Origin: an uncultured Elusimicrobia bacterium
GTDB lineage: Bacteria > Elusimicrobiota > Elusimicrobia > Elusimicrobiales > UBA9959
NCBI GenBank assembly: GCA_903867985.1
Contig: CAIPTO010000144.1
Coordinates: 1-63,388 of the forward strand
Reading direction: 5' to 3'
DNA: 63,388 nt
Shown here: piece after piece, positions 28,444 to 61,456 of the stretch
How positions within the stretch are numbered: position 1 is the stretch's first letter
How the letters are laid out: every line of letters starts with the position of its first letter
Notes under the pieces: generated by a model
Database searches by the model: none
What the model saw: the letters and a program-made list of their open reading frames with translations, nothing else
Told to the model about the DNA's origin: nothing
Position numbers and translations under genes: made by a program

Positions 28444-28462
28444 ATTTTCCGATCCCTTTTCT

Positions 28463-31504: not shown

Positions 31505-31556
31505 AACATCCTTGGATAATAAATTTATGCCATACGCGGAGCGAAAAGCGCCGCGC

Positions 31557-32663: not shown

Positions 32664-32700
32664 ATTATTCTACCCGCCTTTTCATATTCACGCGCATCTA

Positions 32701-36588: not shown

Positions 36589-37917
36589 ATGAATATAGAG
36601 ACCGACATCGTAATACTTGGCGCCGGTTTGAGCGGTCTGGCCGCCGCCGAAGCCCTTTCAGCCGCCGGCCGGCGGGTTCTGCTGCTTGAGAAGGAGCTCT
36701 CTGCCGGCGGACTAGCCAGCACCGTCTCTTATAAAAACTTTAAATTCGATCTGGGCGGACACCGCCTTTACTTCAAAGACGCGACCCTGGCCGCCAGCGT
36801 GGAAAATCTCCTTAAACCGGAACCCCTGCTCAGGCTGAAGCGCAGGAGCAGCACTTTTGTGGGCGGCCGGTTCCTCCGTTACCCGCCGACGCTTTTAAAC
36901 GGCCTCGCCTACGCAGCCCCGGCTTTGATCAGGCGCCGGCGCCGCACGGGCCCAAAAGCCCCGGCAGGATCGCTTAAGCACTGGCTCCATTCACGTTTCG
37001 GCCCGGGCATACACGACGCTTATTTCAGGGATTACACGCTTAAAGTCTGGGGCCTGCCCACCGACAGCATCTCCGCGACTTGGGCGGAAAGACGCATCGG
37101 TCCCATGAATCTTAAAAAGCTTTTCTTTGAGATGTTTTCACTGAAAAGCGCCTCAAAAGAGAACGTCCTGGATTTCCTTTATCCCCGCGAGGGTATAGGC
37201 GGGCTCTGTTCCGCCCTGCAGAAAAAGCTTCCCGCGGGAACACTGCTCACCAGCTCCGTCCCTCTTGAATTTGGAACCGCTGGAGGGAAGATAAACTCTG
37301 TGGTATTCGCGAAGGATGGGAAAGAACGCCGTGCCTCCTGCCGGCATGTCATATCCACCATACCGCTCACGGGACTTGCGTCCCTGTTCAAGGACGCCCC
37401 AGGCCTCCCCGCTTCACATGCGGGTGTAAAATACCGTTCGCTGATCGTACTGTTCGCATCCATGAAACGCCCCGTCCCGCTAGAGGACCATTGGATCTAT
37501 TTCCCGGAAAAAGAAACGTTCTTTTCCCGCGCCTGCGAACTTTCCAACTGGAGCCCCTCCATGGCCTGCGCCGGCGGAGCCATGCCTGCAACCTTCGAGA
37601 TCTTCTGCGACGAAGGGGACAAAACCTGGCGGATGACGGACGCCGATCTGCTTAAAGAAACCGAACGCTCCCTCAGGGCGATGAAACTTTTCGGCGCCTT
37701 TGAGACTATGGATTTTACCGTGGTAAGACTTCCCCACGCCTACCCGCTGCTTTACGCCGGTTTCGAAGCCCCGCTTGAAAATCTTAAAACCGCGCTCGCC
37801 GGATACCGCAACCTGGAACTCTGCGGCAGAACCGGCGGCCACGCCTACCTGGACATGGAAGAATGTCTTCAGAGCGCCGCGGCCGCGGCTAAGCGCGTTC
37901 TAAGCAAAAAAGAATGA
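36589..37917 (+). CDS. FAD-dependent amine-oxidase-like oxidoreductase
   Basis: This 442-residue flavoprotein has the dinucleotide-binding GAGLSGLAAAEAL (from residue 11), the EKE acidic strand end and the second motif GGLASTV...FDLGGHRLYF. This layout is shared by protoporphyrinogen oxidase-like, phytoene-desaturase-like and UDP-galactopyranose-mutase-like proteins. The C-terminal CGRTGGHAYLDMEECLQSA closes the FAD site. Substrate is unknown. The stop overlaps the next gene's start by 4 nt (ATGA), tying it to the B12-binding rSAM protein at 37914 and the acyltransferase at 39407 in one operon. Confidence 0.85.
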   Translation: MNIETDIVILGAGLSGLAAAEALSAAGRRVLLLEKELSAGGLASTVSYKNFKFDLGGHRLYFKDATLAASVENLLKPEPLLRLKRRSSTFVGGRFLRYPPTLLNGLAYAAPALIRRRRRTGPKAPAGSLKHWLHSRFGPGIHDAYFRDYTLKVWGLPTDSISATWAERRIGPMNLKKLFFEMFSLKSASKENVLDFLYPREGIGGLCSALQKKLPAGTLLTSSVPLEFGTAGGKINSVVFAKDGKERRASCRHVISTIPLTGLASLFKDAPGLPASHAGVKYRSLIVLFASMKRPVPLEDHWIYFPEKETFFSRACELSNWSPSMACAGGAMPATFEIFCDEGDKTWRMTDADLLKETERSLRAMKLFGAFETMDFTVVRLPHAYPLLYAGFEAPLENLKTALAGYRNLELCGRTGGHAYLDMEECLQSAAAAAKRVLSKKE

Positions 37918-39410
37918 AAGTCACTTTCCTGCACAACGGCTATGAAAGCCTCGGCGTAGAGGCTCTTTCGGCAGCCCTCAAAAAAACCGGTATCGAAACC
38001 AGCCTGGTCATAGACCCGTGCCTGTTCGATGAAAGCGGTTTCTGGCGGCTGAAAGGCCCCGCGCGGTTTTTCGACCTTAAGAACGAAACCATGGTCCGGT
38101 TGAAAGCCGAAAAACCGGACCTGCTTTGCTTTTCGGTTTTTACGGATAATTACCGCTGGGCGCTGGGCTGGGCCGAAGCCGCCAAAAAGGAGCTGGGCGT
38201 CCCCATAGCGTTCGGCGGCATACATCCCACAAGCGTCCCTGAAAAAGTCATCGCCCAAAGCTGCGTAGACCATATCTGCGTAGGCGAGGGCGACCGCGCC
38301 CTGCCGGCCCTGGCCCTGGCTCTGGACGCGAAAGATCCGGCGCCCATAGCCAATATATGGTCGAAGAGGGACGGAACACTGATAAAGGGGGAGATCGCCA
38401 CGCCGCTCGACCTGGATACGCTTGAATTCGCCGACAAGGATATTTTTTATTCGCGTTATCCTTTTTTCAGGGGCGGATACCTGATCTCGGCTTCCAGGGG
38501 TTGCCCCTTTGCCTGCGCCTACTGCGCGAACAATATTTACGCGCGCCTCTACGGCGGGCGCAAATACGCCAGGAGCAGAAGTCCCGGGCATGTGCTCAGG
38601 GAACTGTCCCTCGCAAAAGAAAGATGGCGGCCGGAGTTCGTGCATTTCTCCGACGAGGTCTTCAACCGGGATACGGCCTGGCTTGAAGCTTTTCTCCCTC
38701 GCTACAAGCGCGAGACGGGCCTGCCGTTCTCCTGCTTTATCTACCCGGACCTTCTGAACGCGAAGACCGCCCGTCTTCTGAAGGAATCGGGGTGTTTCAA
38801 GGTCCAGCTGGGAGTTCAGACTTTCGACGGGGGACGCCGCCTTGAAACACTTAAGCGCCCCTCGTCAAACACAAAAATAGCCGAGGCCCTGGATTTGCTC
38901 AAGCGTGAAAGAGTGTACACGGTCTGTGATTCTATTTTAGGTTTGCCGGGAGACACAAAAAAGGATCTGCTGAACCTGGCCGATTTTTACGCGGAACACA
39001 CTCCGGACCAGAACGAGGTGTTTTTTCTTAAATATTATCCCGGCACGGAATTGACGATAAAAGCCGCGGAGACGGGGCTTTTGAATACTGAAGAACTGGC
39101 GGCGATAGACTCCGGTGACGGACCATCAGGGATCATCAGCCGACCTAAGGGAACACACCCGGAACTCGACAGATTTTTCACGCTGTTCCTTATACTGCCG
39201 CTTCTCCCCGCAGTCCTGAGAAAAGTCATGATTGGGAACGCTTCCATGATGAAATTCCTGCCGGGCAATATTCTCCTCAGAATACTGACTCGTCTCTTAA
39301 AAAGACCGGCCTATGATTTTAATACCGGTCAGTTCTCGCGCAGGTACCGCTATTTTATGAAGCTCAAGTTTAAGAGTTTATGGCAGAAACTATTTTCGCC
39401 CGCGCTATGA
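37914..39410 (+). CDS. B12-binding domain radical SAM protein
   Basis: This 498-residue protein has an N-terminal cobalamin-binding-like Rossmann domain (about 1-150, with NGYESLGVEALSAAL, GGIHPTSVP and VGEGD). The classical DxHxxG motif for the cobalt ligand is not seen. The rSAM domain follows with Cys197-x3-Cys201-x2-Cys204 (CPFACAYC), VQLGVQTFDGGRRLETLKR and GLPGDTKKD. The C-terminal 100 residues are helical. Such enzymes commonly methylate or rearrange lipids, peptides or natural products. It is the middle gene of the 36589-40465 operon, overlapping both neighbours by 4 nt. Confidence 0.9.
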   Translation: MKVTFLHNGYESLGVEALSAALKKTGIETSLVIDPCLFDESGFWRLKGPARFFDLKNETMVRLKAEKPDLLCFSVFTDNYRWALGWAEAAKKELGVPIAFGGIHPTSVPEKVIAQSCVDHICVGEGDRALPALALALDAKDPAPIANIWSKRDGTLIKGEIATPLDLDTLEFADKDIFYSRYPFFRGGYLISASRGCPFACAYCANNIYARLYGGRKYARSRSPGHVLRELSLAKERWRPEFVHFSDEVFNRDTAWLEAFLPRYKRETGLPFSCFIYPDLLNAKTARLLKESGCFKVQLGVQTFDGGRRLETLKRPSSNTKIAEALDLLKRERVYTVCDSILGLPGDTKKDLLNLADFYAEHTPDQNEVFFLKYYPGTELTIKAAETGLLNTEELAAIDSGDGPSGIISRPKGTHPELDRFFTLFLILPLLPAVLRKVMIGNASMMKFLPGNILLRILTRLLKRPAYDFNTGQFSRRYRYFMKLKFKSLWQKLFSPAL

Positions 39411-40465
39411 TAAGCCTCGTATCCGAAAATCTTAACTCCGCCGTTCCCGAAAAGGATGAGGCGGTCCCGTACTGCTGCACCCCCGCTTGGATCGGTCTCT
39501 GCCGTAAGGTTTTCGGTTATGAAGTAAAAGCTTTTTCCATTAGGCGGGATTCCGCGCGGATAGGCGGGTTCATGTACGCCGTGGTCCGCTCTCCCATATT
39601 CGGCACAAGGCTCGTCTCGATGCCTTTCTCGGACGAAGGAGCGATCTGGTTTAAGTCTGGCGAGGTCCCGGACGTACAAAGCATGAAAGCGGTACGGGAC
39701 GCCGTTACGGAGATCCTGGATAAAGACGCCAGGGATCTAGGAGCTGACTACGCGGAACTGCGGGGAGCGGAAATTATTTTCAAGGATGGCGAGCGCGATG
39801 AAAGATTTATTTGCGCTTCGCCTTATACCCGTTTTGTGCTGAACACTTCGGCGACTTACGCATCCCTTCGGGAACGCTTCCAGACCAACCTCATTAAAAA
39901 CCTGAGGAAAGCCGACAAATATATCTCGGTTACGGAAACCCGCGAGCCGGAAGGGGTGGCTGACGTATATGAAATTTACGCGCGGCAGATGCGCGAATTC
40001 GGATCCCCGCCGCTCCCGGTCGCCTACTTCGAACATCTTTTGCATGAAGGGCTTGGGCGGCTGTTCATAGCCCGCGCGAACGGGTGTCCGGCGGCCATGC
40101 TGTTCACTCTGGAGCATAACGGCACCCGCTTCGCGGACATCAACGCCGGGAGCCCGGAATTAGAGGAATTCTTTCCCAAGATACGGCTCTTCGACGAAAC
40201 GATACGCTCCGCCTGCGGCGCCAATTTACCAGCGTACGATCTTATGCGGACGCGTCCGGGCTCAGGCGTACATGCGCACAAACAAAAGTGGGGCGGGAAA
40301 GAACTTCCCATAAAATATTATTTCAGGAAATATCGCGCGGGGGTAAACCTGGAAATGGATCCGGAGCAGAAGCGCTTCGCCCCGGCCAGACTTCTGTTGC
40401 GTCACCTGCCATTGCCTCTGCTGGTGAAGATCGGGCCGCTCATACGCCGGCACGCCGGTAAATAA
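39407..40465 (+). CDS. FemAB/GNAT-fold acyltransferase
   Basis: The start is taken as the ATG at 39407, which overlaps the previous stop as ATGA. The upstream ATG at 39380 would give a 31-nt overlap. The protein of about 352 residues has the double GNAT layout of FemAB-like proteins. LRERFQTNLIKNLRKADK is followed by the second acetyltransferase domain (LGRLFIARANGCPAAMLFTLEHNGTRFADINAGS) and FDETIRSACGANLPAYDLMRTRPGSGVHAHKQKWGG. Relatives add amino acids to peptidoglycan or occur in exopolysaccharide/PEP-CTERM loci. It converges on the membrane protein gene with an 8-bp gap. Confidence 0.82.
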   Translation: MISLVSENLNSAVPEKDEAVPYCCTPAWIGLCRKVFGYEVKAFSIRRDSARIGGFMYAVVRSPIFGTRLVSMPFSDEGAIWFKSGEVPDVQSMKAVRDAVTEILDKDARDLGADYAELRGAEIIFKDGERDERFICASPYTRFVLNTSATYASLRERFQTNLIKNLRKADKYISVTETREPEGVADVYEIYARQMREFGSPPLPVAYFEHLLHEGLGRLFIARANGCPAAMLFTLEHNGTRFADINAGSPELEEFFPKIRLFDETIRSACGANLPAYDLMRTRPGSGVHAHKQKWGGKELPIKYYFRKYRAGVNLEMDPEQKRFAPARLLLRHLPLPLLVKIGPLIRRHAGK

Positions 40466-40473
40466 TTAGAGCT

Positions 40474-42087
40474 TTAATGTTCCCGCGCCTGCGGCGGACG
40501 AGCCGATCTGCCAGGTACCGCGTCCGCCCCCGACAGACACGTGTTAATTTTAATCACACAGATCTCATCGTCATCCGTTCTTACACTGAAATCACAATGT
40601 GTCAGCGCATAGGCCTGCCAAAAACGTTTTCCCACGACAGGCAGCGCCCCGCCGCTTTCCGTATAGGAGCGGGCCATATCGTCGAAATAAAACGAGTTTT
40701 CTATAATAATAAAATCAGGCTTATACTCTGCTATAAATTTCTCCGCGCCGGCGGCAGAGTCGGAGTAGAAAAAAGCCAGGCTGTTCTCGTATCTGCGCCG
40801 TATATCCGGCATAACGCGTTGATCGAAGGGAAATTGAACCATCTCTTTGAAAGAGACGACGGGGCGCTTGGCGAAGAACGGAATAGAATAGATCAGTTCG
40901 CTGTCCGGATGGCCAGCGATAAGGGCCTGGGGATCCTGCCGGTTTAGATATTCATAAACGGGTTTGTATTTTGAAAAACTCTTAATATCGTTGTATAGCG
41001 GATGCAGCAGTACGAAAGCGGCCAGGAGAACATAACTTGCCGTCCTGAGCTTTCCGTCCGTCCAGACGAGCATATTATCCATTATAACGAACGTCAGCGC
41101 GAAAGGGATCGTGAAGACAAATTGCCTTCCGGCCGTGGGCAGCGAAAAGCCGGCCACAAGGATGAACGCCGCGGCAGCACCGAACAGAACTATCTTTATT
41201 TCTCTCGGCATATTCTTTACAGGACCCGGTTTTCCCCGCACCAGAAAGACGCCGGCGAGCAGCAGAAAGAAGAGTGTTAAATACCTGTAAAGTTCGCTGT
41301 GTTCGTTTAAATTTAAGATAAAATACGCCGCAAACCGGATCGGATCGGGAAGAACCGCCGCGCGGCCGAGGAATCCCGAAAACTTGTACGTTTGGTATCT
41401 GCTTATATCAATACTGATGTAAGTGCCCAGAACGACGGCGGCAGCCAGCAGCGCGAACGCCCCGAACAGCAGGATATAGGTGCGTTTCAGACCGGGGGAC
41501 CAGCTTGATCCGTACGAGAAGAACACCAAAACGCATGAGATCCCGATAACCGGCAAAACTGGCGGATAAAACGCCCAGGCTAAAACAATAAAAACCGGCA
41601 GGGCGTAGAATTTTTTTGTGAAGAGGGAATACATGAACAGGCAGAATATCAGGATCCCGAAGGTCCGGGGCTGCCCGTGATAGAGCGAATCCATAGAGAG
41701 AAAGTAAACACAGAACAACGCGCATAGCAATTTCGCGGCTTCGGGTCTTTTGTAGACTACTAGGCCTATTCTATGGACCAGCGCGCAGCAGCCGAGCGAC
41801 GCCGCGATCGAGACGCTTTTTAATATCAGGATAATATTAAAATATTTGGCCAGAAAAGCGTAAAGAGCGACCACCAGCGAATACGCGGCTATCGGATTTT
41901 GCTGGCGGGCCTGCAGCGCATAGGCCAGGAAAACGTCTTTCGCGTACAAATGAGTCGCGGAAGCGCTGTTATAAAAATAGAAGTTCAGGGAATCCGGGTA
42001 CAGGGAATAAGCGGGATCAAATATAAAAGGACATCCTATGAAATTGACGTAAAGCACCACGCTTAAAATGAGAAAAGAAAAATACAT
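40474..42087 (-). CDS. Polytopic membrane protein, GT-C-like
   Basis: This 537-residue protein has about 12 hydrophobic segments and a soluble C-terminal region of about 130 residues. The first extracytoplasmic loop contains CPFIFDPAYSLYPDSLNFYFY. I do not recognise a family with certainty. The layout (long first loop, many helices, soluble tail) is like GT-C glycosyltransferases that use polyprenyl-linked donors. It is the last gene of the long minus-strand operon that starts at 49713, with a 6-bp gap after the epimerase gene. Confidence 0.65.
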   Translation of the reverse strand: MYFSFLILSVVLYVNFIGCPFIFDPAYSLYPDSLNFYFYNSASATHLYAKDVFLAYALQARQQNPIAAYSLVVALYAFLAKYFNIILILKSVSIAASLGCCALVHRIGLVVYKRPEAAKLLCALFCVYFLSMDSLYHGQPRTFGILIFCLFMYSLFTKKFYALPVFIVLAWAFYPPVLPVIGISCVLVFFSYGSSWSPGLKRTYILLFGAFALLAAAVVLGTYISIDISRYQTYKFSGFLGRAAVLPDPIRFAAYFILNLNEHSELYRYLTLFFLLLAGVFLVRGKPGPVKNMPREIKIVLFGAAAAFILVAGFSLPTAGRQFVFTIPFALTFVIMDNMLVWTDGKLRTASYVLLAAFVLLHPLYNDIKSFSKYKPVYEYLNRQDPQALIAGHPDSELIYSIPFFAKRPVVSFKEMVQFPFDQRVMPDIRRRYENSLAFFYSDSAAGAEKFIAEYKPDFIIIENSFYFDDMARSYTESGGALPVVGKRFWQAYALTHCDFSVRTDDDEICVIKINTCLSGADAVPGRSARPPQAREH

Positions 42088-42093
42088 AGAAGT

Positions 42094-43116
42094 TTAGAGA
42101 CTCCTGTTCCTCCGGAACCATTCCACGCTTAAAGCTATGCCTTCCCGGGCGGTGAATTTCCTGCTGTACCCCAGTCCGATCAGCTTGGAAATGTCGCAGC
42201 TCCAGTTGATCGGCATAGCCGCCAGCATTTCCGAATCGAAATTCACTCTGAAGGGGAATATTTCCAAACCTATCATGCGCTCAATCGCTTCCTTGAAGCG
42301 AAGGCCCCATCTCAAGAGACTTTTATTTACGGCTATCTCGCGGATCTTCTTTTTTTTACCCAGGGCGGCCGCAACCATCTCCACGGTTTCCGTGAAAGAC
42401 CGGCTTTCATCGGATACGAAATACACTTCTCCTGATCTCCCTTTTTCGCAAACAGCGATACTGGCCTCTGTCAGGTTGCCGACATAGCACACAGGCACCC
42501 GTATCTCCGTTCCCGTGATCGCCATGGAAAAGCCCAGATTTACAAGCCTGAACAGCATCGCCCAAGGTCCGCTGTAGGGACCGTAGACCATGCCGGGCCT
42601 TATCACGCTCACCGGCAGGGCAAAGTCCTTAAAAAGACCCAGGATCCGCCGCTCGCCGTCAAGTTTGCTCCTGCCGTAAACGGAATATGGCGGTGAGGCC
42701 CAGTCTTCTGTAATATTCACGCCAGGCCCCGCGCTAGCCACACTGCTATAATGAACCAGCCGCTCCACTTTTTTCGCGAGACATGCCCGGGCCAGGTTCA
42801 TAGCGCCGTCCACATTGGTCTGGAAACAAAGGCGCCCGAAACCGCCCTTTGAATATATGGATCCCGACGGCCTTACGGTCGCCGCCAGGTGATAAACAAC
42901 GCTCACCCCCTCCAAAGCCCTGAGGATGGAGGGCGGATCGAGCAGATCGCCCACGGCGATCTCCACACCGAGTCCATTCAGCGCGGAGCAATCGCTGCTG
43001 GCCCTTACAAAGCACCGCACGCGCGTCCCCCTGGCGGACAGCTCCCTGACAAGATTCCTGCCGATGAAGCCCGTAGCTCCGGTTACCAGAATAAGTTTAT
43101 CGCGTGATGTAAGCAC
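42094..43116 (-). CDS. NAD-dependent epimerase/dehydratase (extended SDR)
   Basis: This 340-residue extended SDR has the cofactor motif VTGATGFIGRNLV (from residue 12), HLAATV, the Ser of VHYSSVASAG and the catalytic YGRSK (about 148). The C-terminal substrate domain is diverged. Relatives include dihydroflavonol-reductase-like and sterol-dehydrogenase-like enzymes and nucleotide-sugar epimerases. Substrate cannot be read from sequence. Its start overlaps the preceding B12-rSAM gene by 20 nt. Confidence 0.85.
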   Translation of the reverse strand: MLTSRDKLILVTGATGFIGRNLVRELSARGTRVRCFVRASSDCSALNGLGVEIAVGDLLDPPSILRALEGVSVVYHLAATVRPSGSIYSKGGFGRLCFQTNVDGAMNLARACLAKKVERLVHYSSVASAGPGVNITEDWASPPYSVYGRSKLDGERRILGLFKDFALPVSVIRPGMVYGPYSGPWAMLFRLVNLGFSMAITGTEIRVPVCYVGNLTEASIAVCEKGRSGEVYFVSDESRSFTETVEMVAAALGKKKKIREIAVNKSLLRWGLRFKEAIERMIGLEIFPFRVNFDSEMLAAMPINWSCDISKLIGLGYSRKFTAREGIALSVEWFRRNRSL

Positions 43117-44632
43117 AAGTCATATCCTTGACGCGCCTGAAAACATACTTCGCGTTGAATTTTAAAAGTTCAAGGGAGGAAACGTGGGGGTAAGGGAATT
43201 TTTTTCCTCTGAAATATTTCTGGAATAGAATATTAAATAAAATGCATACGCCGCGGAGATCGAACGCGGGCAGGCGGCGGTACAGCCTGCGCACGATTAT
43301 TTCTTCAACCAGCCGCCTGGGCAGAAAATTCACAAGACATAAAAGGTTCCTGATCCTGGCGTTGGCAGAAGTCTTCGTATGTCCGCCCAGCGAATAAGGG
43401 AGGCTTTGCGCGCCCGTCCGGATGCCGCGCACCTGCTCCGGCGTCAGCAGGGATGTTTCGGCCGCGAACTCAGTTATCCTGGTCTTCGGGTAGTACCGCA
43501 GCCAGTTTGAGTCCGCAAAATCCGGCCTGCAGGCGTTCAGGAATTTGACTGTCTCCAGAGTCTCAGCCTCAGTCTCTTCCGGCAGACCTAAAATGATATT
43601 GGTGCACACGAATATGGCGGTCCGGCCTAATAATTCCACTCCCTGCTTTATACGCCCGGTCTCTTCAAAACGGTTGAGCACCTTTGCCCTGACCCGCTCG
43701 TTGATCGTCTGGATCCCGAGATTTACGCTGCCGCATTTGGACCTTTCCAGGAGCGCGACCATTGCCGGGGTAAGGAAACGGCTGTGAACTGTGCAAAAGA
43801 ACGGCAGGTCTATCTTTTCCCGGTACTGCGACAGGAAATTCTCCAGCCAATCGGCGTCATGAATGAATAAATCGTCAAAAAACGCGACTCTTTTGATATT
43901 GAATTCGCCTTTCGCCCAGAGAAGTTCGTTTATTACGTTCGCCGGACTTCGCCGCCTTTTCTTATGGCGGGAAGTCCCGTATATCCGGCTTAAATAACTG
44001 TTATGGCAGTAACTGCATTCAAATATGCAGGACCTGCTGGTAACCACCGAGTAAGGGTCGCGCACGAACGCGGGATGCTCCCTGTAGAACAGGCCCTTGT
44101 CCGGCAAAGGCAGGGCATCCAGATCTTCCACAAACTTTACCGCCAGCGGGAAGACGGGGGTTCCATTGTGTTTGAATACTATATTAGCGGCAAATGGCGC
44201 CGCGGGGTCCTCCCCGCCTCCGGCCAGGCGATCCATCAGTTCCGAGATAGCGGGCTCCCCTTCTCCGACACACACATAATCGACATTCTCTTCTTTTATA
44301 ACCTCTTCGCCGACTGCGGTGGCGTGATGGCCGCCGAAAAGTATAGGGGCGCGGCATTCCTTCTTCAACTTTCCAGCCAACCTTTTAGCCCACTGGTAGG
44401 TATCGGAATAGACCGAAAAGCATATCAAGTCAGGACAAAGCTGCTTCACACGCCGCACAATAGCTTCGTCATAACTGAAAATATTCTTTACAGCCTCGCT
44501 CCTGAATCTGAAGTTGTCTCCGATGGCGGGATCAAAAGCCAGGAATGTATCGTGTCCGAGTCCCTGTAGGACCGCGGAGACGTACTCCACACCCATATTT
44601 TCCCCGCCATTATGAATAAATAACACCTTCAT
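43097..44632 (-). CDS. B12-binding domain radical SAM protein
   Basis: This 511-residue paralogue of the proteins at 37914 and 44629 has an N-terminal cobalamin-binding-like domain (NGGENMGVEYVSAVLQGLGHDT, GGHHATAV, VGEGEPA) without an obvious DxHxxG motif. The rSAM cluster site is Cys202-x3-Cys206-x2-Cys209 (CIFECSYC), and GLPEETEAET is present. A helical C-terminal region follows. Its start overlaps the stop of the 44629 reading by 4 nt. Tight coupling with a second paralogue suggests successive modifications of the same scaffold. Confidence 0.9.
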   Translation of the reverse strand: MKVLFIHNGGENMGVEYVSAVLQGLGHDTFLAFDPAIGDNFRFRSEAVKNIFSYDEAIVRRVKQLCPDLICFSVYSDTYQWAKRLAGKLKKECRAPILFGGHHATAVGEEVIKEENVDYVCVGEGEPAISELMDRLAGGGEDPAAPFAANIVFKHNGTPVFPLAVKFVEDLDALPLPDKGLFYREHPAFVRDPYSVVTSRSCIFECSYCHNSYLSRIYGTSRHKKRRRSPANVINELLWAKGEFNIKRVAFFDDLFIHDADWLENFLSQYREKIDLPFFCTVHSRFLTPAMVALLERSKCGSVNLGIQTINERVRAKVLNRFEETGRIKQGVELLGRTAIFVCTNIILGLPEETEAETLETVKFLNACRPDFADSNWLRYYPKTRITEFAAETSLLTPEQVRGIRTGAQSLPYSLGGHTKTSANARIRNLLCLVNFLPRRLVEEIIVRRLYRRLPAFDLRGVCILFNILFQKYFRGKKFPYPHVSSLELLKFNAKYVFRRVKDMTCAYITR

Positions 44633-46158
44633 TTTTTATACGCCCTTTTCATACCCGACAGAGAGCCCGTTATTTTTTTATACGCAAAGTAAAAACAGCT
44701 TTGCAGATACACTCTTGCGCCGGAATCATATGTCGCTTTCCGGTAAAAGAAGCCCCCCAGCGGAGAAAATTTTATTATTCTCGCCAAGCGGTTCAGGGAT
44801 CCGAACCAGAGGGGGATATAACGGTACAAATTAAGATAAAGGATCGCGGAGATCACCGCCGCCGGAAGATAACCCGCTGATTCAAGCAGGATGGCGGCCT
44901 TCTTAGTCAGCGCCGGGTTTTTGACATTCAGTTTCCAGCCCATCCCGGTGTCGGTTCCGGTTTCCACAAGCCGCTCGAGAGGCACATCAGGGAACCTTTG
45001 GCCCTCCTGTTCCAGCAGATCGGTTTGAGGATATAACCTCAGCCAGTTCGCGATTATAAGATCGGGCTTGCTTTCCGCATAAAACCCGGCCAGCTCCAGC
45101 AGATTTTCATGGGATGAGCGAGGCAGGCCGACAATATTCTCAGTGACGGTTAAAATGCCGTACTTTTTTAAAACACCCATGGCGGCCCGGATTTCACCCA
45201 GAGATTCATTCCGCGACACAGCGGATTTAGAGACAGGGTCTATACTCTGGATCCCGATGCCTATTTCATAACAATTGGAGTCTTTAAGAAGCCTGATGAC
45301 AGATTCCGTAACGGAAGTCGGATGCAGGTAGCAAAAAAAAGGCAGATTCACCTTTTGCCTGTAGCTTTCGCAGAATTCTTTCAGCCAATCTTCGCTCCAG
45401 AAGAACATGTCATCAACAAACCAGACATACTCCGGAGCGTACTTCTCTTTGGCCAGACCCAATTCCCGTATCACATTATCAGGCGTCCTTTTTCTTACAT
45501 GGCTTTTGCCGTATAATTTGCGCAGCGAATGATTCGAGCAATAGGAACAGTCAAAATGGCAGCCACGGCTGGTTATGGCCATGTAGGTTTTTTTGTAAAC
45601 CGGATTCTGCGCGTAATATATTTCCTTATCGGGAAATGGCAGATCATCCAGGTCGGAATTTATCGGGGCCAGGGGATTTTTTATTACCCCCCCCGGTTCT
45701 TTAAACCAGATATTGCTTATATTCGTCCTGACCGCACCCGCATCAAAACTATCCGCCAGCTCCGTAAGAGCCGTTTCACCTTCCCCCACGCAAACAGCGT
45801 CCAGGCAAGTGTTCTCAATGACCGCAGCAGGCGACAATGTGGGGTGGATCCCCCCGAATATAACAAAAGCTTTAGTGCGGGAACGGATCATGCCAGCCAG
45901 GGCCAGGGCACACTGATAATTGTCGGTAACTACGGAAAAACAAATAATGTCCGGCGCAAAAGCGGCGACCCCGGCCAAAACAGTCTCCCTGGAATCAAGC
46001 AGCGTCGCCAGCGTCTTATTCTGAAAAAACACGTCCCGAAACAGAAGGGGATCTATGACCAACCCTACCGCGTGGCCGCGGGCCTTAAGATGCGCGGACA
46101 GATATTCTATTCCCAGATTCTCAAAAACTCCGGTTGAAATGAACAGGACGCGCGCCAT
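44629..46158 (-). CDS. B12-binding domain radical SAM protein
   Basis: This 509-residue protein has an N-terminal domain with ENLGIEYLSAHLKARGHAVG, FGGIHPTLSP and VGEGETALTEL. The rSAM domain carries Cys200-x3-Cys204-x2-Cys207 (CHFDCSYC), and GIGIQSIDPVSKSAVSR and GLPRSSHENL are typical of the core barrel. Sequence layout is closest to the 43097 and 37914 proteins, so these are within-cluster paralogues. Its start shares one base with the stop of the upstream rSAM gene. Confidence 0.9.
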   Translation of the reverse strand: MARVLFISTGVFENLGIEYLSAHLKARGHAVGLVIDPLLFRDVFFQNKTLATLLDSRETVLAGVAAFAPDIICFSVVTDNYQCALALAGMIRSRTKAFVIFGGIHPTLSPAAVIENTCLDAVCVGEGETALTELADSFDAGAVRTNISNIWFKEPGGVIKNPLAPINSDLDDLPFPDKEIYYAQNPVYKKTYMAITSRGCHFDCSYCSNHSLRKLYGKSHVRKRTPDNVIRELGLAKEKYAPEYVWFVDDMFFWSEDWLKEFCESYRQKVNLPFFCYLHPTSVTESVIRLLKDSNCYEIGIGIQSIDPVSKSAVSRNESLGEIRAAMGVLKKYGILTVTENIVGLPRSSHENLLELAGFYAESKPDLIIANWLRLYPQTDLLEQEGQRFPDVPLERLVETGTDTGMGWKLNVKNPALTKKAAILLESAGYLPAAVISAILYLNLYRYIPLWFGSLNRLARIIKFSPLGGFFYRKATYDSGARVYLQSCFYFAYKKITGSLSGMKRAYKK

Positions 46159-47198
46159 TATTTATAAACCTTAACCGGTAATCCGCCGGTTGCCAGGCCA
46201 GAGATATATTTCCTGTGAAATTCAGTGTCGTCAATCCGGCATTTAGCCGGCTTTTCGCTTTTAAACATAGGGCTGGCCCGCATGCCGCATATGATCTGAT
46301 CCATCCCATCGGTCAGAACATTGCCGAAAGAATAGGGGATAAATTCACACGGCTGTAATTCGCCGCGGGGATTGATATATAGCGTGGACCCGATGGAGCA
46401 TCGCGGGATGGAAACGCGGTTAAATACCGGCAAGCCGAAAGAAGGGATGGACGTGAGTCCGCTTATATCCTTTGCGCCGATAGGCTCCAGAAAGTCGAGC
46501 CATCTTCCCGCGGAATGCGGCGCGGTCAGCCGCAGCGCGCCGGCGCCTTTGGCGCGCGCCAGCGATATAATATCAGCAATGACTCCGTCTTCTATCAGGC
46601 GCTTTGTGGCAACGACCGAGACCACTGTTAAAAGCCCGTGCTTCAAGCAAAGCTCCAGAGCCCGCGTCACGCGCTCAAAAGATCCGGGTATCCCGCAGAA
46701 ACCGTCATGTTCATTTTTTGACGCCGCATGAAGACTCAGACAGACGCATGATAAGCCGGCGGCCTTCAGCGATTGAACAACGGTTTCATCGGCCAGCAGG
46801 TATCCATTGGTCTCCAGAAAAGTTATGAAACCCTTCCCGGAAGCCATCCCTATCATACCCGCGATATCGGGATGCAGGAGCGGTTCACCTCCCCCGAAAT
46901 AAACTCTAGGGACTTTAAGACTCTCAAGATCCCGCAGGATCTTTTCAGCGTCTCTCAAAGCAAGTTCGCCGGCTTCAGCGCGGCTTCCATCCACGGCGCA
47001 ATGCCGGCAGTTAAAGTTACATCGACCGGTCACCGCGATCGTGGCGGCGGAAGGCGAACAGAGGCGAGCTGTTTTCCGGGCGCAATGCGCGAGTATCAGG
47101 CGTAGTTTCTTTGCAGTGCCCGCCAGTTCCAGCAGGAATATTAATTTTAAAGGTAAATTCAAAACCTGACGGAGGATAGGAAGATGATAAACTTTCAT
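46158..47198 (-). CDS. Radical SAM/SPASM-like protein
   Basis: Starting at the ATG at 47196-47198, 4 nt after the previous stop, the protein has about 346 residues. The rSAM site is Cys60-x3-Cys64-x2-Cys67 (CNFNCRHC), followed by VYFGGGEPLLHPDI. The C-terminal part has IPRCSIGSTLYINPRGELQPCEFIPYSFGN and a later Cys in PAKCRIDD, the layout of SPASM-type auxiliary clusters. It lacks a B12 domain. A hydrophobic N-terminal segment (LPLKLIFLLELAG) may associate with the membrane. The longer reading to 47255 overlaps the upstream gene. Confidence 0.85.
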   Translation of the reverse strand: MKVYHLPILRQVLNLPLKLIFLLELAGTAKKLRLILAHCARKTARLCSPSAATIAVTGRCNFNCRHCAVDGSRAEAGELALRDAEKILRDLESLKVPRVYFGGGEPLLHPDIAGMIGMASGKGFITFLETNGYLLADETVVQSLKAAGLSCVCLSLHAASKNEHDGFCGIPGSFERVTRALELCLKHGLLTVVSVVATKRLIEDGVIADIISLARAKGAGALRLTAPHSAGRWLDFLEPIGAKDISGLTSIPSFGLPVFNRVSIPRCSIGSTLYINPRGELQPCEFIPYSFGNVLTDGMDQIICGMRASPMFKSEKPAKCRIDDTEFHRKYISGLATGGLPVKVYK

Positions 47199-47202
47199 AA
47201 AG

Positions 47203-48273
47203 TCAGCCGCAGGAATTATACCCGGGATCGCGCAGTGCTTCCTTAAACCCGGCATCGTTCATCGGGCATTTGTTCCCGGGCGCCAGCTTGAACAACTCAT
47301 GGGAATACATCCGGCTTATGATCGCGCCCAATTTTTCTTTCCGGATATTCCCGAAATAAAAAGGCACGGTATAACAGAACTGCACGTCCCCGTACGGGGA
47401 CAGATAGACCGTTTTTTTAAGCTTGGCTTCGCAGACTTTCGCGCCGCCGGATATTCCGTACAGGATACTTTCGCTGTACACAAAATAATTGTCGATAAGG
47501 GAATGCACCCTTTTCAGGTCAAAAGCGGATATTGGGGGCCGGCGGCCCTTCAAACGTCCGCAGTCTATGGGCAGCAACAGGCGCACGCCGGAAGCGCCGA
47601 CCCTTCTGGAACAAAGAATGATATTTTCAAGAATATTCCCGTTCAGCACCCGATTGTCGACATATACGGAGAACAGGCAGGGGACTCCGGCGGCTTTGCA
47701 GTCCCGCGCCACGGCTTCTATCTTCCGGTAAACGGCCGCCGCGTCCAACGGATCGTTCTCTCCGCATGAATCCTTTGTCTGCGTATTCACACTGACTGCG
47801 GTGATCCCGGCCGATTTCAGCCGTTTTAACGAATCCGGAGTCAGGAGTTCCCCGTTGGTGTCCAGAAAAACAAACAGATCCCTGGAGGAGGCGTGGCACA
47901 CCAGTTCCATTATGTCGTCCCTCAATAGCGGCTCGCCGCCAAAAAAATTCACTTTGGATATTTTAAGAGCGGCTGCTTGATCTATCGCGTCCTTTACTTC
48001 TCCCGTGCCCAGAACTGGGCCGTCGGAGGGATACTCGCCTACGGAACAGTAATGGCAATGATACTGGCATTTATATGTAACGCCCATTATCAGGGCAGCC
48101 GGAGAATCCGGCCATAGTATAAGTTTTAGGAGGCTTTTTACGAGGCGCACTGAATTTTTCAACCAAGAGCCTTTGAAGGCTATCCGGCAAATGAAAAAGA
48201 ACTGTCCTATATTAAATGGCTTAAAATTCCTTGGCATCTTTTTGTCTAAAGTTTCACGACTTATCAGCGGCAT
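47203..48273 (-). CDS. Radical SAM/SPASM-like protein
   Basis: This 356-residue rSAM protein has Cys69-x3-Cys73-x2-Cys76 (CQYHCHYC), VNFFGGEPLLRDDIMEL and the substrate-side strand VSVNTQTKDSCGEND. The C-terminus VYLSPYGDVQFCYTVPFYFGNI and NKCPMNDAGF again look like a SPASM-type cluster. It is paralogous to the 46158 protein, with which it is adjacent. It begins 9 bp after the stop of the B12-rSAM gene at 48283. The pair could act as partners. Confidence 0.85.
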   Translation of the reverse strand: MPLISRETLDKKMPRNFKPFNIGQFFFICRIAFKGSWLKNSVRLVKSLLKLILWPDSPAALIMGVTYKCQYHCHYCSVGEYPSDGPVLGTGEVKDAIDQAAALKISKVNFFGGEPLLRDDIMELVCHASSRDLFVFLDTNGELLTPDSLKRLKSAGITAVSVNTQTKDSCGENDPLDAAAVYRKIEAVARDCKAAGVPCLFSVYVDNRVLNGNILENIILCSRRVGASGVRLLLPIDCGRLKGRRPPISAFDLKRVHSLIDNYFVYSESILYGISGGAKVCEAKLKKTVYLSPYGDVQFCYTVPFYFGNIRKEKLGAIISRMYSHELFKLAPGNKCPMNDAGFKEALRDPGYNSCG

Positions 48274-48282
48274 CCTGAATCA

Positions 48283-49713
48283 TCAACTCCAACTCATCTT
48301 TGGGAAAACATATTCCAAGCAACGTTTTAAGACCGCGGGGATATGTATCAGGATATATCTCCTATCCGGCAACCCCTTCCAGATACGCCACATTTGCGCC
48401 GGCCGCAGGTAAAATCCGATATACGCCTTCGCCCGAAGCTTTCTCAACTCGGCGTCAGTTAGTGCCGACATGTTAACAGAAAGCTTGAAATAGTGATGAA
48501 ACACGATGTTTTCCAGATTGGTCTTTGTGTTCTTAAGCAATGCGTACAATGGCGTATTCGGCCGCGGGGTCACGTAAAAAAAATGCACGAAGAGAAAAGG
48601 CATTTTTATGGCGAAGCTGACCGTCTTAAGGAGCTCCTCTTTTGTTTCTCCGGGGAAACCGAACATGAAAAAACCGCAGACTATGATACCCTGTCGCGCA
48701 GTAAAGCGGATGATCTCACGGGCTTTATCAAGATCAAGGTTCTTCCCTATACGCTTCTGCACGGCGGGCGACCCGGATTCTATGGCGTAGTAAATCAGAT
48801 GTGTTCCTGCCTCTTTAAGTTTAAGGACAAGTTCCTCGTCCATGCCGTCCACCCTGAGGGCGTTCGGAAACGAAAGTTTTATCTTTATACCGCGCTTCAC
48901 TATCTCGTCGCAGATTTTTTTTGCTCGGCCCAGGTCAAAATTAAAAATATCATCCAGGATCTCTATCTCTCCGATAGCGTATCTTTCCACCAGTAATTCT
49001 ATTTCTCTGAGAACGTTTTCAGCGCTCCTCAGCCTTATCCTCTTACCGAAAATATTGTGGCAGTAGATACATCCGAAAGGGCAGCCGCGTGAGGTGGACA
49101 TGGGCATCAACCTGTGCGACGCCGGCAGCGGATTTTGAGAATGCCGGGTAGTAAAATTGAGATATTCTTCCATATCCACCAAATCCCAGGCGGGGAAGGG
49201 TATGGAGTCGATATCCTCTATCATCTTCCGACGCGGATTAACTTTAATCCCTGTGCCGGTTTTAATGGCCAGGCCGTCTATCCCGGACACATCCCTGCCG
49301 CTCTCCAGGGCGCCGACGAGTTCGCATATGGTACGCTCACCTTCCCCTGTCACGACAAAGTCTATATTTGGATCTTCAATGAGACTTTCAGGGCTTGAGG
49401 TGGCATGAGCCCCGCCGACCACAACTTTACAGCGCGCGGCCGACGCTTTTATCAGCCCGGCAAGCCTATGGGTTTCAGCTGCTTCCGTGCATAAGCAGGA
49501 TATTCCCACGACATCGGGCGAAAAATTACTTATACGCGCAAGGATTTCCTGATGGTCCAAGTCATTAACCCTGGCGTCCACGATATTTATAAGGTTATAA
49601 CCCGCCTGCCTCAGGGCAGCGGCTATGTATAAAATGCCGAGAGGAACACTTCGCGCAATATATCCCCCGTCAGATTGCCCTTGCAGATTCGGATTTAGCA
49701 GCAATATCTTCAT
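48283..49713 (-). CDS. B12-binding domain radical SAM protein
   Basis: This 476-residue protein is the first gene of the minus-strand operon. The N-terminal cobalamin-binding-like domain has PLGILYIAAALRQAGYNLINIVDAR, VGGAHATSSP and VTGEGERT. The rSAM domain carries Cys211-x3-Cys215-x2-Cys218 (CPFGCIYC), EIEILDDIFNFDLGRAKKIC, YAIESGSPAVQKRIGKN and GFFMFGFPGETKEELL. It belongs to a different subgroup from 43097/44629 and is closely similar to the plus-strand protein at 50838, on the other side of the divergent deacetylase gene. Confidence 0.9.
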   Translation of the reverse strand: MKILLLNPNLQGQSDGGYIARSVPLGILYIAAALRQAGYNLINIVDARVNDLDHQEILARISNFSPDVVGISCLCTEAAETHRLAGLIKASAARCKVVVGGAHATSSPESLIEDPNIDFVVTGEGERTICELVGALESGRDVSGIDGLAIKTGTGIKVNPRRKMIEDIDSIPFPAWDLVDMEEYLNFTTRHSQNPLPASHRLMPMSTSRGCPFGCIYCHNIFGKRIRLRSAENVLREIELLVERYAIGEIEILDDIFNFDLGRAKKICDEIVKRGIKIKLSFPNALRVDGMDEELVLKLKEAGTHLIYYAIESGSPAVQKRIGKNLDLDKAREIIRFTARQGIIVCGFFMFGFPGETKEELLKTVSFAIKMPFLFVHFFYVTPRPNTPLYALLKNTKTNLENIVFHHYFKLSVNMSALTDAELRKLRAKAYIGFYLRPAQMWRIWKGLPDRRYILIHIPAVLKRCLEYVFPKMSWS

Positions 49714-49913
49714 AGTTCCAGAATTAATTTAACGGTGCGGAAATAACCGGGCCGATTCCCGACAAATCGGCATAAATATGCGTGGGTTTCGTCAGTCGGC
49801 GACATGAGAATTTTACTAGTTTTACCGGCGCTTGTCTATTGCGGAAATTACACATAATCGAACAGCACAGAGGGCAGATTTTTTGTTCCAAATATGTTTT
49901 ACTGGTATATCAA

Positions 49914-50756
49914 ATGATTAAAGACATTTCCTCCGTTGTCAACGCCCTCTCCATAGACGTGGAAGAATGGTTTGACACCGTGCTGTTCTCGGACGACGCG
50001 GCCTTTGGCGCCAGGCAAAGCGGCTTGCCCGCGGATGTTTCGAGAATACTGGCCATGTTGGACGGAATGGCCGTTAAAGCGACTTTCTTTATTCTGGGTT
50101 CTGTGGCGCGCAAATATCCCGATACGGTCAAATCGATAGCGGCGGCCGGGCATGAAGTTGCCAGCCACGGCGGAACCCACAAATCGGTGTTCAGGATGAG
50201 CACGGCTGAATTTAAAAAAGATCTCTCCGATTCAAGGACCGCGCTTGAAAAGCTGACAGGGAAAGCCCCGCTGGGCTACAGGGCTCCTACTTTTTCCATT
50301 TTAAAAAACGAATCCTTTTATCTCGCCGCCATCAGGGAAGCGGGCTATTCATATGATTCCAGCCTGTATCCTGTTTTTCTTTCCCGCAGGCGCAGGGCGC
50401 CCTACACCGATGCCAGCGGCCTCATGGAATTCCCTCCTTCAGTTTTTAGTTTTTCCGGAGTGAAGTTCCCGTTCCTGGGCGGCACTTTCCTTCGCCTTAT
50501 GCCCAAAAATTTTCTCGCTTCAAGGCTGGCAGGATTGAACTCCATGGGACTGCCCGGAATCCTTTATTGCCACTCCTGGGAATTCGGCGAAATAGCGCCG
50601 GCCGGAACCGGGCTAACGAAGGAACTTATACAATATTCCAACGTCGCAAGCGTGGCCAAAAAAGTAAACTATCTCGCGCGCTCATTTAAATTCTCCCCGG
50701 TGAGAGAAGTGCTGGGACTTTCCCGGTGCCCCAAGCCAAATATGGGCATATTGTAG
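49914..50756 (+). CDS. Polysaccharide deacetylase with DUF3473-like tail
   Basis: The start is placed at the ATG at 49914-49916 (about 280 residues), just before the diagnostic NALSIDVEEWFD. An upstream reading from 49782 adds 44 unlikely residues. The NodB domain shows the metal-binding Asp in SIDVEE, SHGGTHKSVFRMS with two histidines, and GYRAPTFSILKN. The tail MEFPPSVFSFSGVKFPFLGGTFLRLMP and YCHSWEFG match the DUF3473 module found with PEP-CTERM/exopolysaccharide loci. It de-N-acetylates a glycan of unknown identity. It is divergently oriented from the 49713 gene. Confidence 0.85.
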   Translation: MIKDISSVVNALSIDVEEWFDTVLFSDDAAFGARQSGLPADVSRILAMLDGMAVKATFFILGSVARKYPDTVKSIAAAGHEVASHGGTHKSVFRMSTAEFKKDLSDSRTALEKLTGKAPLGYRAPTFSILKNESFYLAAIREAGYSYDSSLYPVFLSRRRRAPYTDASGLMEFPPSVFSFSGVKFPFLGGTFLRLMPKNFLASRLAGLNSMGLPGILYCHSWEFGEIAPAGTGLTKELIQYSNVASVAKKVNYLARSFKFSPVREVLGLSRCPKPNMGIL

Positions 50757-50837
50757 TACAATGCCAATTATGGAGCTATCTGCAAACGACATGGTTCTGC
50801 AAACAGCCTGCCGACTCCCCGCATCGGTGCTGCAGCA

Positions 50838-52178
50838 ATGAGATTTTTGCTGATAAAAGCCTCTTGCCCCAAAAGATACAATCTTGCTTTCCCGCCGGTC
50901 GGTCTGCTATATCTTGCCGGCGCTCTTAAAAAAGCCGGCTATAGCGAAGTCAGGCTTCTTCATATGGATCTTTGCAAGAATCCCCACCAGGCCCTGGCCG
51001 AAGAACTCGCGACCTTCAGGCCGGACGTGGTGGGAATAAGCGCCATAACCGCGGAGGCTATTTCCTTGCATAAGATAGCCGCCCAAATTGCAACTTTTGT
51101 TCCTAAACCGTTCATTATAGCAGGAGGAGCATATCCCACATCCTGCCCCGATGAATGTCTGAACAGTGGAAATATCGATGCCGTAGTGCGTAATGAGGGA
51201 GAGGAAACCTTGGTCGAGCTAGTATCGGCTCTGGAAAAAGGTCGCGGACTGGAGAACATAAGGGGCGTGTCCTACATTGGGCAAGGAGTTCCTCGCCATA
51301 ATCCAAACAGGCCTTTTATAGAAGATTTAGACTCGCTTCCCATGCCCGATTGGAGCCTTACAGATTTTGACCGCGACAAAGCATTTTATCCTCAGTCTGG
51401 ATTACTCTACGTGCAAACCCATATGTCAATAATGACCTCCAGGGGGTGTCCATATCATTGCACTTTCTGCCACAATATGTTCGGGAAACATTTCCGCGCG
51501 CATTCCCCCGAGCGGGTGCTGTCGGAGCTGAAGACGCTGAGAGAGGCGTATGGGATAAGGGAGATAGAGATAATAGATGACATTTTCAACCTCGACAAAG
51601 AGCGCGCTGCTGAAATAATGAGAAGGATACGCGATGAATTGCCCGGCACAAAACTTTTTTTTGGAAATGGTTTAAGAGGTGATATTTTGACTCGCGAACT
51701 TATAGATCTTTTCGCGCAGGCCGGAGTAAAATCCGTATCAATAGCAGTTGAAACCGCGAGCCCGGATCTGCAAAAAAGAGTTCATAAGAATATTGATCTG
51801 CCGAAGCTTAGCGAAAACATCCACTATCTGGTGCATAAACGAATTTACACTAATGGTTTTTTTATGATGGGATTTCCGGATGAAACCCCGGCAGAACTGA
51901 TGGAAACCATAAAACTCATCTGGCGCCTGCCGATACACAATTTCATACTTTCCCCCTGTATGGTCTACCCGGGCGCGCGTCTCGCAAAAACTCTTCATAT
52001 GGATAAAAAAACGCCTTTACTTAATAATATGACCGCCCGCGCCTCCGTCACGGGCGGCGCCTTCTGCTCAACCCTGAACCCGCGCCTGCTGCCGCTTATA
52101 AAGATCGTCGCCATATTTGTGTTTTATTTCTGTTTCCCTGTCAGGGTTTACAGAATCCTGAGAGATATGCCATTTTAG
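50838..52178 (+). CDS. B12-binding domain radical SAM protein
   Basis: This 446-residue protein has an N-terminal cobalamin-binding-like domain (PPVGLLYLAGALKKAGYSEVRLLHMDL, AGGAYPTSCP, NEGEET). The rSAM site is Cys204-x3-Cys208-x2-Cys211 (CPYHCTFC). IREIEIIDDIFNLDKERAAEI and VSIAVETASPDLQKRVHKN mirror the 48283 protein, so the two are paralogues. GFFMMGFPDETPAEL is the conserved barrel strand. It leads a plus-strand group with the DegT-like and SPASM-like genes after a 61-bp gap. Confidence 0.9.
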   Translation: MRFLLIKASCPKRYNLAFPPVGLLYLAGALKKAGYSEVRLLHMDLCKNPHQALAEELATFRPDVVGISAITAEAISLHKIAAQIATFVPKPFIIAGGAYPTSCPDECLNSGNIDAVVRNEGEETLVELVSALEKGRGLENIRGVSYIGQGVPRHNPNRPFIEDLDSLPMPDWSLTDFDRDKAFYPQSGLLYVQTHMSIMTSRGCPYHCTFCHNMFGKHFRAHSPERVLSELKTLREAYGIREIEIIDDIFNLDKERAAEIMRRIRDELPGTKLFFGNGLRGDILTRELIDLFAQAGVKSVSIAVETASPDLQKRVHKNIDLPKLSENIHYLVHKRIYTNGFFMMGFPDETPAELMETIKLIWRLPIHNFILSPCMVYPGARLAKTLHMDKKTPLLNNMTARASVTGGAFCSTLNPRLLPLIKIVAIFVFYFCFPVRVYRILRDMPF

Positions 52179-52239
52179 AGATTTAAAATTGTTTCATTTC
52201 TGCTAATAAAAATTTCAGGAAACCATTTTTTACCCTTGA

Positions 52240-53292
52240 ATGAAAAATATTTTAATGAATAATATAATATTCAACCCCTACAGATTGGACGCCCTGCTGG
52301 CGGAGGAGGAAGCTGAGGAGGCCGCGCGGCTGCGGCGCGAAGGGCTGAAAAATTATCTGGCCGGCCTGGGTGAGGAGCTGGCCCGTCTGTGCGGCAGAAA
52401 GCGCTGCGTTTTCTCCTCCAGCGGAAGAGCCTCTCTGAAAGCCGGACTTTCCGCGCTCGGCGCCGGGCGCGGGAAAACCGTGGCGCTGAACAACCTTACC
52501 CACCATTCGCTGCTTAAAGCCGTAACGGGGAGCGGGGCGCGCCCCGTGCCCGTGGAAGCTTGCCTTAAGAACCTCAACCCCGACCGCCGCACCATACAAA
52601 AATCCGCGAAGAACGCCGACATTGTTCTGCTGGCCCATATGTTCGCCTCCTCCAGCAGCCCGGCGGCCGTTAAAGCCTCCTGCCGGGAGCGCGGCGTAAA
52701 AATACTGGAGGACGCCTCCCAGGCAATAGGCCTGAGGCACTCCGGCAAGCCGCTGGGGAGCTTTGGAGATATAAGCGTGCTATCCCTTTCCCCTTATAAA
52801 CCTGTTTCAAAGAGGGGGATAAAAGCCGGCGCGCTTCTTTTCGACGACGACGCGTACTCCCGCACCCTCGTCCGCCTCCCGCATCCCCCCGGTCTTGAAA
52901 TTGCGGCGCCCATGCTCCGCGTAAAATTGAAGCGCCTCCCCCTTATCCTCGAAGATTTGAAACGTTCGAACGCCGCCTTCAGAAAACGCCTTGCCGCAAT
53001 CCCCCAACTGCGCCTTCCGGACACCGGAATGGCCGCACAGGAGATACCATTATTCGTGGAAGAGGGCGCCGCGCCAGCGCTGGCGGCGTTCCTTGAGAAA
53101 GCGGGGTTCAGCCCCGAAAGGAAATATGCGCCTTTCCATGAGACCTTAGGCCTAGACGCCGACGCATTCCCGGTAAGCTCTCTTTACAGCGCGACAGCCC
53201 TACACCTGCCTGTTTATTGTAAAATGACGGAGAGCGAGATAAATTATGCCTGCACCGCCATCGAAAGATTCTTTAAAAACCGGCGCCCTTGA
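52240..53292 (+). CDS. DegT/DnrJ/EryC1-family PLP enzyme
   Basis: This 350-residue aspartate-aminotransferase-fold protein has LEDASQAIGLRHSGKPLGSFGDISVLSLSPYKPVS. This is the DegT pattern with the PLP-binding Asp158 and Lys187. Typical members transfer an amino group to keto-sugars in glycan or antibiotic pathways. It is shorter than most (about 370-400). Two in-frame ATGs (52240 and 52255) lie at the start and neither has a good Shine-Dalgarno. The 3' end overlaps the next rSAM gene by 47 nt. Confidence 0.8.
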   Translation: MKNILMNNIIFNPYRLDALLAEEEAEEAARLRREGLKNYLAGLGEELARLCGRKRCVFSSSGRASLKAGLSALGAGRGKTVALNNLTHHSLLKAVTGSGARPVPVEACLKNLNPDRRTIQKSAKNADIVLLAHMFASSSSPAAVKASCRERGVKILEDASQAIGLRHSGKPLGSFGDISVLSLSPYKPVSKRGIKAGALLFDDDAYSRTLVRLPHPPGLEIAAPMLRVKLKRLPLILEDLKRSNAAFRKRLAAIPQLRLPDTGMAAQEIPLFVEEGAAPALAAFLEKAGFSPERKYAPFHETLGLDADAFPVSSLYSATALHLPVYCKMTESEINYACTAIERFFKNRRP

Positions 53293-55028: not shown

Positions 55029-55080
55029 TATATTTAACCTTCGGTCGTGCCGTATCGGGAGAGATACACCCATCAGACGG

Positions 55081-55899: not shown

Positions 55900-56020
55900 A
55901 ACAAAAATCCGCCTCCGCTAAAGACTTTCCGCTCGATGTGAATATTATATAATTATTGAAAACGCGTTGCCCGGATCATCAAACCACCCTGGCCATAGCC
56001 GTTTTACAGACAACCTCATC

Positions 56021-56941: not shown

Positions 56942-57016
56942 CTGCTGAGCTGCCGAAAACGACAGAGATGGATTTTGCTTTACCGTCGCCTTCGCCTTTA
57001 CCCGCCTCACTACACG

Positions 57017-60260: not shown

Positions 60261-60264
60261 AACA

Positions 60265-61425: not shown

Positions 61426-61456
61426 AAGCGCTCGCACCAGCGGCTCCTAACCACAA

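Follow-up and report, generated by a model that had tools for sequence, protein, structure and literature searches.

What does a bacterium make with a locus in which radical S-adenosylmethionine (SAM) enzyme genes follow one another almost without a gap, and is such a locus a unit at all? The question is raised by a contig of 63,388 nucleotides from an uncultured, groundwater-type Elusimicrobia bacterium (GenBank assembly GCA_903867985.1, contig CAIPTO010000144.1; here G000:C144:1-63388, the window), the assembly being 92% complete. A first-pass annotation, made from the letters alone, had described a dense array of B12-binding radical SAM genes with envelope-type enzymes at 36,589-53,292. We find that these genes belong to an island of ~32 kb (at least 31.7 kb) between a carbamate kinase gene (carbK) and an ornithine-carbamoyltransferase-like gene (OTCase-like; OTC). 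The phyla concerned have hardly any cultured members, and no account of a carbK-OTC island turned up in literature searches that paired Elusimicrobiota or Omnitrophota with radical SAM. For this dense radical SAM locus we can now give borders and a minimal set of conserved genes, and a sister species whose empty site serves as a control.

Borders and empty site

The left anchor, on the minus strand, consists of a threonine-synthase-like pyridoxal phosphate (PLP) enzyme (ThrC-like; 30266-31504) and carbK (31557-32663), and is also found in G111, G057, G192, G179, L103 and L105. The density of the array is real, but its boundaries had been drawn too narrowly: it does not end at 53,292 but runs to 61,437 (~61.4 kb), close to the end of contig C144, through a SPASM-type radical SAM gene (SPC, 53246), the gene pair 54342/55081, three further radical SAM genes, a DUF2334 protein and a GT28-like glycosyltransferase gene. 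From there the island probably continues on contig C32 of the same genome, which carries a radical SAM gene, the OTCase-like gene, an M20 peptidase, further radical SAM genes and then PhoH-BamA-OmpH-LpxD, and which runs collinear to the right-hand portion of the G111 locus. The proposed join is supported because a single contig of the congener G192 spans carbK, the entire island and OTC, with the genes ordered as expected; by synteny, the gap between C144 and C32 is predicted to be short.

In the sister species G028 (ThrC 93%, OTC 97% and PhoH 94% identical) the carbK-OTC position is an empty site. Window positions 30,266-33,348 align with G028 22,424-25,398 (77% DNA identity up to 33,348) and C32 1,699-3,157 with G028 27,612-29,020, leaving 2.2 kb between the two aligned flanks as against ~32 kb in G000; at least 31.7 kb is present in G000 and absent from G028. 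The site is nearly empty in G115 and G087, with one small gene each, and it carries divergent versions of the island in the window genome, G192, G111, G057 and G179. In G028, the ThrC-like, carbK, OTCase-like and M20 genes (window 30266-32663 and G000:C32 1705-4469) lie close together, and they look like one carbamoyl/diaminopropionate catabolic set split by the island.

Radical SAM enzymes

The genes claimed in the first pass are all open frames with the domains ascribed to them. Five encode B12-binding radical SAM enzymes: B12a (37914-39410, plus strand), B12b (43097-44632, minus), B12c (44629-46158, minus), the BchE-like B12d (48283-49713, minus) and the BchE-like B12e (50838-52178, plus), each with PF02310 and PF04055 above cut-off. 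Three are SPASM-type enzymes, namely SPA (46158-47255, minus), SPB (47203-48273, minus) and SPC (53246-54280, plus), with PF04055 and PF13186 found in SPA and SPC. A small radical SAM protein stands beside the left anchor (33428-34327, minus), and three more follow on the right (55967-56941, 56975-58189 and 58180-59511, all plus); these four match PF04055. The CxxxCxxC motif is intact in all 12 proteins. Twelve of the 64 radical SAM genes of the genome fall within 26 kb (33,428-59,511; 0.64 expected, binomial ~2e-12) and five of its 21 B12-binding genes within 14 kb (0.11 expected), densities whose p-values assume independent genes, which operon genes are not. The stretch 36,589-61,437 is 99% coding, with a largest gap of 81 nt. 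Coupling of many genes by overlaps of 1-20 nt had been proposed, and same-strand neighbours are indeed tightly packed: 12 of 17 gaps do not exceed 20 nt or are overlaps, of which the larger ones (31-73 nt) may stem from start-codon choice.

Paralogy within the cluster (43097/44629/37914 and 48283/50838) had been taken to indicate stepwise modification of one scaffold. The genes in each set are homologous, but they are not local duplicates, and the argument from paralogy is not supported. In a rapid phylogeny of 67 proteins, with SH-aLRT as the sole support measure and several deep forks open, B12a, B12b and B12c fall into three separate old lineages with their nearest relatives in other genera or phyla: the B12a orthologue clade takes in Elusimicrobiota, Omnitrophota and Elulimicrobiota, B12b groups with Elusimicrobiota fusion proteins, and B12c is sister to one Omnitrophota gene (L121; support 100). 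B12d and B12e share 38% identity, whereas their matches to genes elsewhere reach 43% and 51%, respectively. Tree and identities together rule out local tandem duplication: the set was assembled from old, separately inherited lineages, the nearest kin of which belong to other genera or to Omnitrophota.

Certain steps are linked better by gene fusion (43097 with 46158) and by conserved pairs than by paralogy. In G045, G057, L103, L124 and L128, B12b and an SPA-type enzyme form a single protein of 845-855 aa, with a CxxxCxxC motif in each half in the G045 and G057 sequences; further family members have open frames of ~850-913 aa at the B12b gene, consistent with fusion. By alignment, SPA (46158) is the separate counterpart of the C-terminal half of the fused proteins. 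In the Omnitrophota L108, L112 and L113, arrays of five to seven B12a/b/c-type genes lie close together, several copies having their own counterpart in another genome.

Sugar and envelope enzymes

The accompanying genes are of glycan type, by homology only in the case of the glycosyltransferase and nucleotide-sugar genes (GT-C, GT28-like, UGM-like, SDR and DegT). The first is an FAD enzyme (36589-37917, plus) whose nearest solved proteins are UDP-galactopyranose mutases (UGM; 4dsg, E 7.5e-22, residues 6-323); its gene adjoins B12a in G111, G045, G192, L097, L101 and L105. A short-chain dehydrogenase/reductase (SDR) of NAD-dependent epimerase/dehydratase type (42094-43116, minus; PF01370) has counterparts next to B12a in G111, G045 and L103. 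The remaining members are a FemAB-like acyl/aminoacyl transferase (39380-40465, plus; PF13480; TIGR03019 97 bits, below the cut-off of 260; alternative start possible at ~39407), a TIGR03006-like polysaccharide deacetylase with DUF3473 (PDA; 49782-50756, plus), a DegT/DnrJ/EryC1-type PLP aminotransferase (52240-53292, plus; PF01041), a DUF2334 (NodB-like deacetylase) protein (59439-60230, plus; PF10096) and the GT28-like glycosyltransferase (60265-61437, minus; weak PF04101 match, 23 bits).

The protein called GT-C-like in the first pass (GTC; 40474-42087, minus; ~10 transmembrane helices) has no Pfam match, and its AlphaFold model (pLDDT 79.5, pTM 0.82) bears that assignment out. Its 17 best matches in the PDB are without exception GT-C enzymes (among them DPY19, OST/PglB, ALG9/12 and ArnT; best E 8e-6), and the protein is accordingly modelled as a membrane glycosyltransferase of GT-C fold. 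A GTC homologue is present at 11 of 13 loci of island-related lineages and at none of 67 other B12-binding radical SAM loci, a descriptive contrast, since the 13 loci were picked from tree and gene content.

The pair 54342/55081 resembles the anaerobic hydroxylase pair UbiV/UbiU in sequence. The 55081 protein (55081-55899, minus) belongs to family U32 (PF01136; UbiU model NF047963, 70 bits, below the cut-off of 440). Its partner (54342-55073, minus) has no Pfam match and conserves C46 and C183-x10-C194-x3-C198; the profile of its family matches the U32 family (probability 81%, E 1.3e-5), and in 16 out of 19 cases such a gene has a U32 neighbour on its own strand. The 54342 family found no useful match in sequence searches of Pfam and the PDB, and the U32 profile had no match in the PDB. 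Much as in the O2-independent UbiU-UbiV hydroxylases, the members of a putative U32-type pair are adjacent, and a far-upstream cysteine precedes C-x10-C-x3-C in 54342. This spacing is off by two from the CXnCX12CX3C of UbiV (PMC6747719), the 55081-type member has only two invariant cysteines where UbiU has four, and no UbiT or quinone genes were seen with the pair. Like the double-radical-SAM fusion, the pair is a concrete, testable enzyme arrangement. At least two U32/54342-type pairs occur per locus at G030:C20, G057:C68, G115:C40 and G121:C25, which suggests a number of O2-independent hydroxylase-like pairs that act on different substrates.

Exchange among relatives

The congener G192 has a complete counterpart in the order carbK-rSAM-FAD-B12a-GTC-...-B12b-DegT-SPC-U32/unk-rSAMs-GT-rSAM-OTC (rSAM, radical SAM; unk, 54342-type). 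Its flanks are 89-91% identical to ours (ThrC, carbK and M20), the small radical SAM gene next to carbK is 73% identical (its counterpart also adjoins carbK in G111, G179, L103 and L105), and the right module (55967-61437) is mostly 57-81% identical, with 81, 69 and 66% for the three radical SAM genes in order and 66% for the GT28-like gene. The left module reaches only 27-53% (FAD 53, B12a 46, GTC 27, B12b 39 and SPA 35%), and the FemAB, SDR and PDA genes have no match in G192. With flanks at ~90% and a left module at 27-53% between congeners, the locus varies like an O-antigen locus. FAD and B12a are 77-79% identical to G179, which belongs to another genus, and pieces of the island have therefore been exchanged.

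Complete islands hold 17 radical SAM genes in G192 and in G111; G057 has 16. A strong B12a-type match was found in 18 of the 59 genomes of the family, and these usually carry a further copy, of B12b type, at a distance of 8-27 kb along that contig. One Omnitrophota contig (L101/L121) has homologues of B12a, FAD, PDA, GTC, SPB, SPA, B12c and FemAB on one strand, together with GT2, GDSL and PMT-type genes. The proposed array of radical SAM and envelope-type enzymes thus stands, in a lineage that includes named groundwater Elusimicrobia. Homologues scattered without a conserved neighbourhood are ruled out by the loci of these relatives, in which the carbK-OTC neighbourhood is kept. The locus is a real, conserved and exchangeable radical SAM island; its borders, the empty site, the divergent versions, the double-radical-SAM fusion and the predicted GT-C fold are established.

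Product

From the predicted functions we infer a radically tailored envelope glycan. We give a probability of about one half to a modular, exchangeable island for the synthesis and decoration of a cell-envelope glycoconjugate, in which radical reactions replace O2-dependent tailoring. The UGM-like FAD enzyme, the SDR and the DegT enzyme would prepare an unusual sugar, which pairs of B12-binding and SPASM-type radical SAM enzymes could alter by C-methylation, deoxygenation or epimerisation, 43097 and 46158 presumably acting one after the other. The UbiUV-like pair would hydroxylate without O2, the GT-C enzyme would move the sugar from a polyprenyl carrier at the membrane's outer face, and the deacetylases and the FemAB-like enzyme would complete the glycan. 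As in O-antigen, capsule and exopolysaccharide loci, fixed flanks enclose content that is divergent and exchangeable between close relatives, and glycosyltransferase, deacetylase, SDR, aminotransferase and GT-C enzymes are present; unlike in those loci, radical SAM enzymes dominate and no polymerase/flippase pair was identified.

Several observations weigh against a glycoconjugate product. FemAB, SDR, PDA and DegT were each detected in only part of the island versions. The island genes scanned include no flippase, polymerase or ABC export gene (the flippase/polymerase scan of the relatives covered part of their open reading frames); a Wzy polymerase might be dispensable with a GT-C enzyme. No island enzyme scores above the curated cut-off of any functionally defined family; cut-offs are passed for broad domains only. 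Some of the B12-binding domains may not bind cobalamin; AprD4, for one, has a B12-type fold but is not known to require B12. Structure lends 54342 little support, its model (pLDDT 58, Foldseek E 2e-3) being too weak for use by itself. More tentatively, the locus might be a serotype-like surface-glycan island shared piecewise by Elusimicrobiota and Omnitrophota, in which serial radical SAM enzymes, among them one protein with two radical SAM sites, and a UbiUV-like hydroxylase diversify sugars. Such 'radical glycans' of anaerobes would form a class without a described counterpart.

A secreted or intracellular secondary metabolite, such as an aminoglycoside-like, sugar-derived small molecule, seems unlikely as the product in place of a surface polymer. 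The nearest solved structure to B12a, B12b and B12c is AprD4, the radical SAM diol dehydratase of apramycin (E 1e-18), an SDR-type gene adjoins B12a or B12b, and SDR and DegT enzymes are common to both kinds of pathway. AprD4, of the AprD4/AprD3 radical sugar deoxygenation in apramycin, is a sugar diol dehydratase working with an NADPH reductase (PMC5461906). The match is limited to the radical SAM core (residues 191-393) at low identity and may be fold similarity only, and B12a scores 27 bits against the AprD4 model NF033070, below its cut-off of 500. The GT-C membrane enzyme, the deacetylases and FemAB indicate the envelope, no aminoglycoside pathway genes are present in the island, and no resistance or export gene is among the domains found.

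Groundwater Elusimicrobia reportedly carry loci that combine nitrogenase paralogues with radical SAM genes, for which reduction of a tetrapyrrole has been proposed. That our array belongs among them and makes a reduced tetrapyrrole cofactor is improbable. The phylum is the same, radical SAM proteins are many, and nitrogenase-like PF00148 genes occur at the island locus in six relatives (G111:C7 64.4-73.4 kb, G045:C18 34.7-38.5 kb, G179:C27 63-67 kb, G115:C40, G087:C42 and G028:C15 51.4 kb). B12d and B12e score best against BchE, and SPA and SPB against AhbD/NirJ-type models, but every BchE/NirJ score is far under cut-off (207 and 177 bits for B12d and B12e against 481 for the cyclase model TIGR02026), and no chelatase or tetrapyrrole enzyme is among the genes scanned. 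PF00148 has no match in G057, G030 or the G000 assembly (92% complete), and its absence from the last was the ground for rejecting such a locus in G000; the block found between OTCase and M20 in G111 is missing from C32. G028 has the nitrogenase paralogue without the island and G000 the island without a nitrogenase match; therefore the two modules are separable, and the carbK-OTC island is a separate insertion, missing in the nitrogenase-bearing sister. The tetrapyrrole idea may hold for the nitrogenase module and has little support for the radical SAM island, which is thus set apart from the neighbouring paralogues that had hinted at such a product.

Modification of membrane lipids, by hopanoid-, ladderane- or tetraether-like chemistry, is more doubtful still: B12-binding radical SAM enzymes match TIGR04072 'ladder' and HpnJ, and the SDR matches HpnA, but the scores are far under cut-off, the models are just the nearest of a broad family, and the pathway was rejected for want of scaffold enzymes, no ketosynthase, acyl carrier, squalene cyclase or prenyltransferase being found in the island. 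SPASM and B12-binding radical SAM enzymes are typical maturases of ribosomally synthesised and post-translationally modified peptides, but such a pathway, with a small peptide as substrate, is very improbable and was dismissed, as the gaps of 81 nt or less leave little space for a precursor gene (overlapping short frames apart) and no peptide transporter or protease was identified.

Neighbouring genes

Between the left anchor and the FAD gene lies a protein with Pfam TPR repeats (34727-36484, plus) that has no clear counterpart at the same place in relatives. At the contig end, a protein without assigned function (61898-63151, minus) has syntenic counterparts after the glycosyltransferase gene in G111, G057 and G045. 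Leloir galactose genes (galactokinase, GalT and a GalE-type epimerase) at 18108-21429, 15 kb from the UGM-like gene, are a possible UDP-galactose supply. A second radical SAM cluster with a class-V aminotransferase lies between M20 and PhoH (G000:C32 4.6-15 kb) and is collinear with G111; in G028 this site is filled by the nitrogenase module. ApbE-family and asparagine-synthase-like genes stand beside the nitrogenase-like genes in G111. Next to PhoH, a Barstar-like protein and a barnase-type ribonuclease form a pair (G000:C32 18160-19170) that is kept in several relatives.

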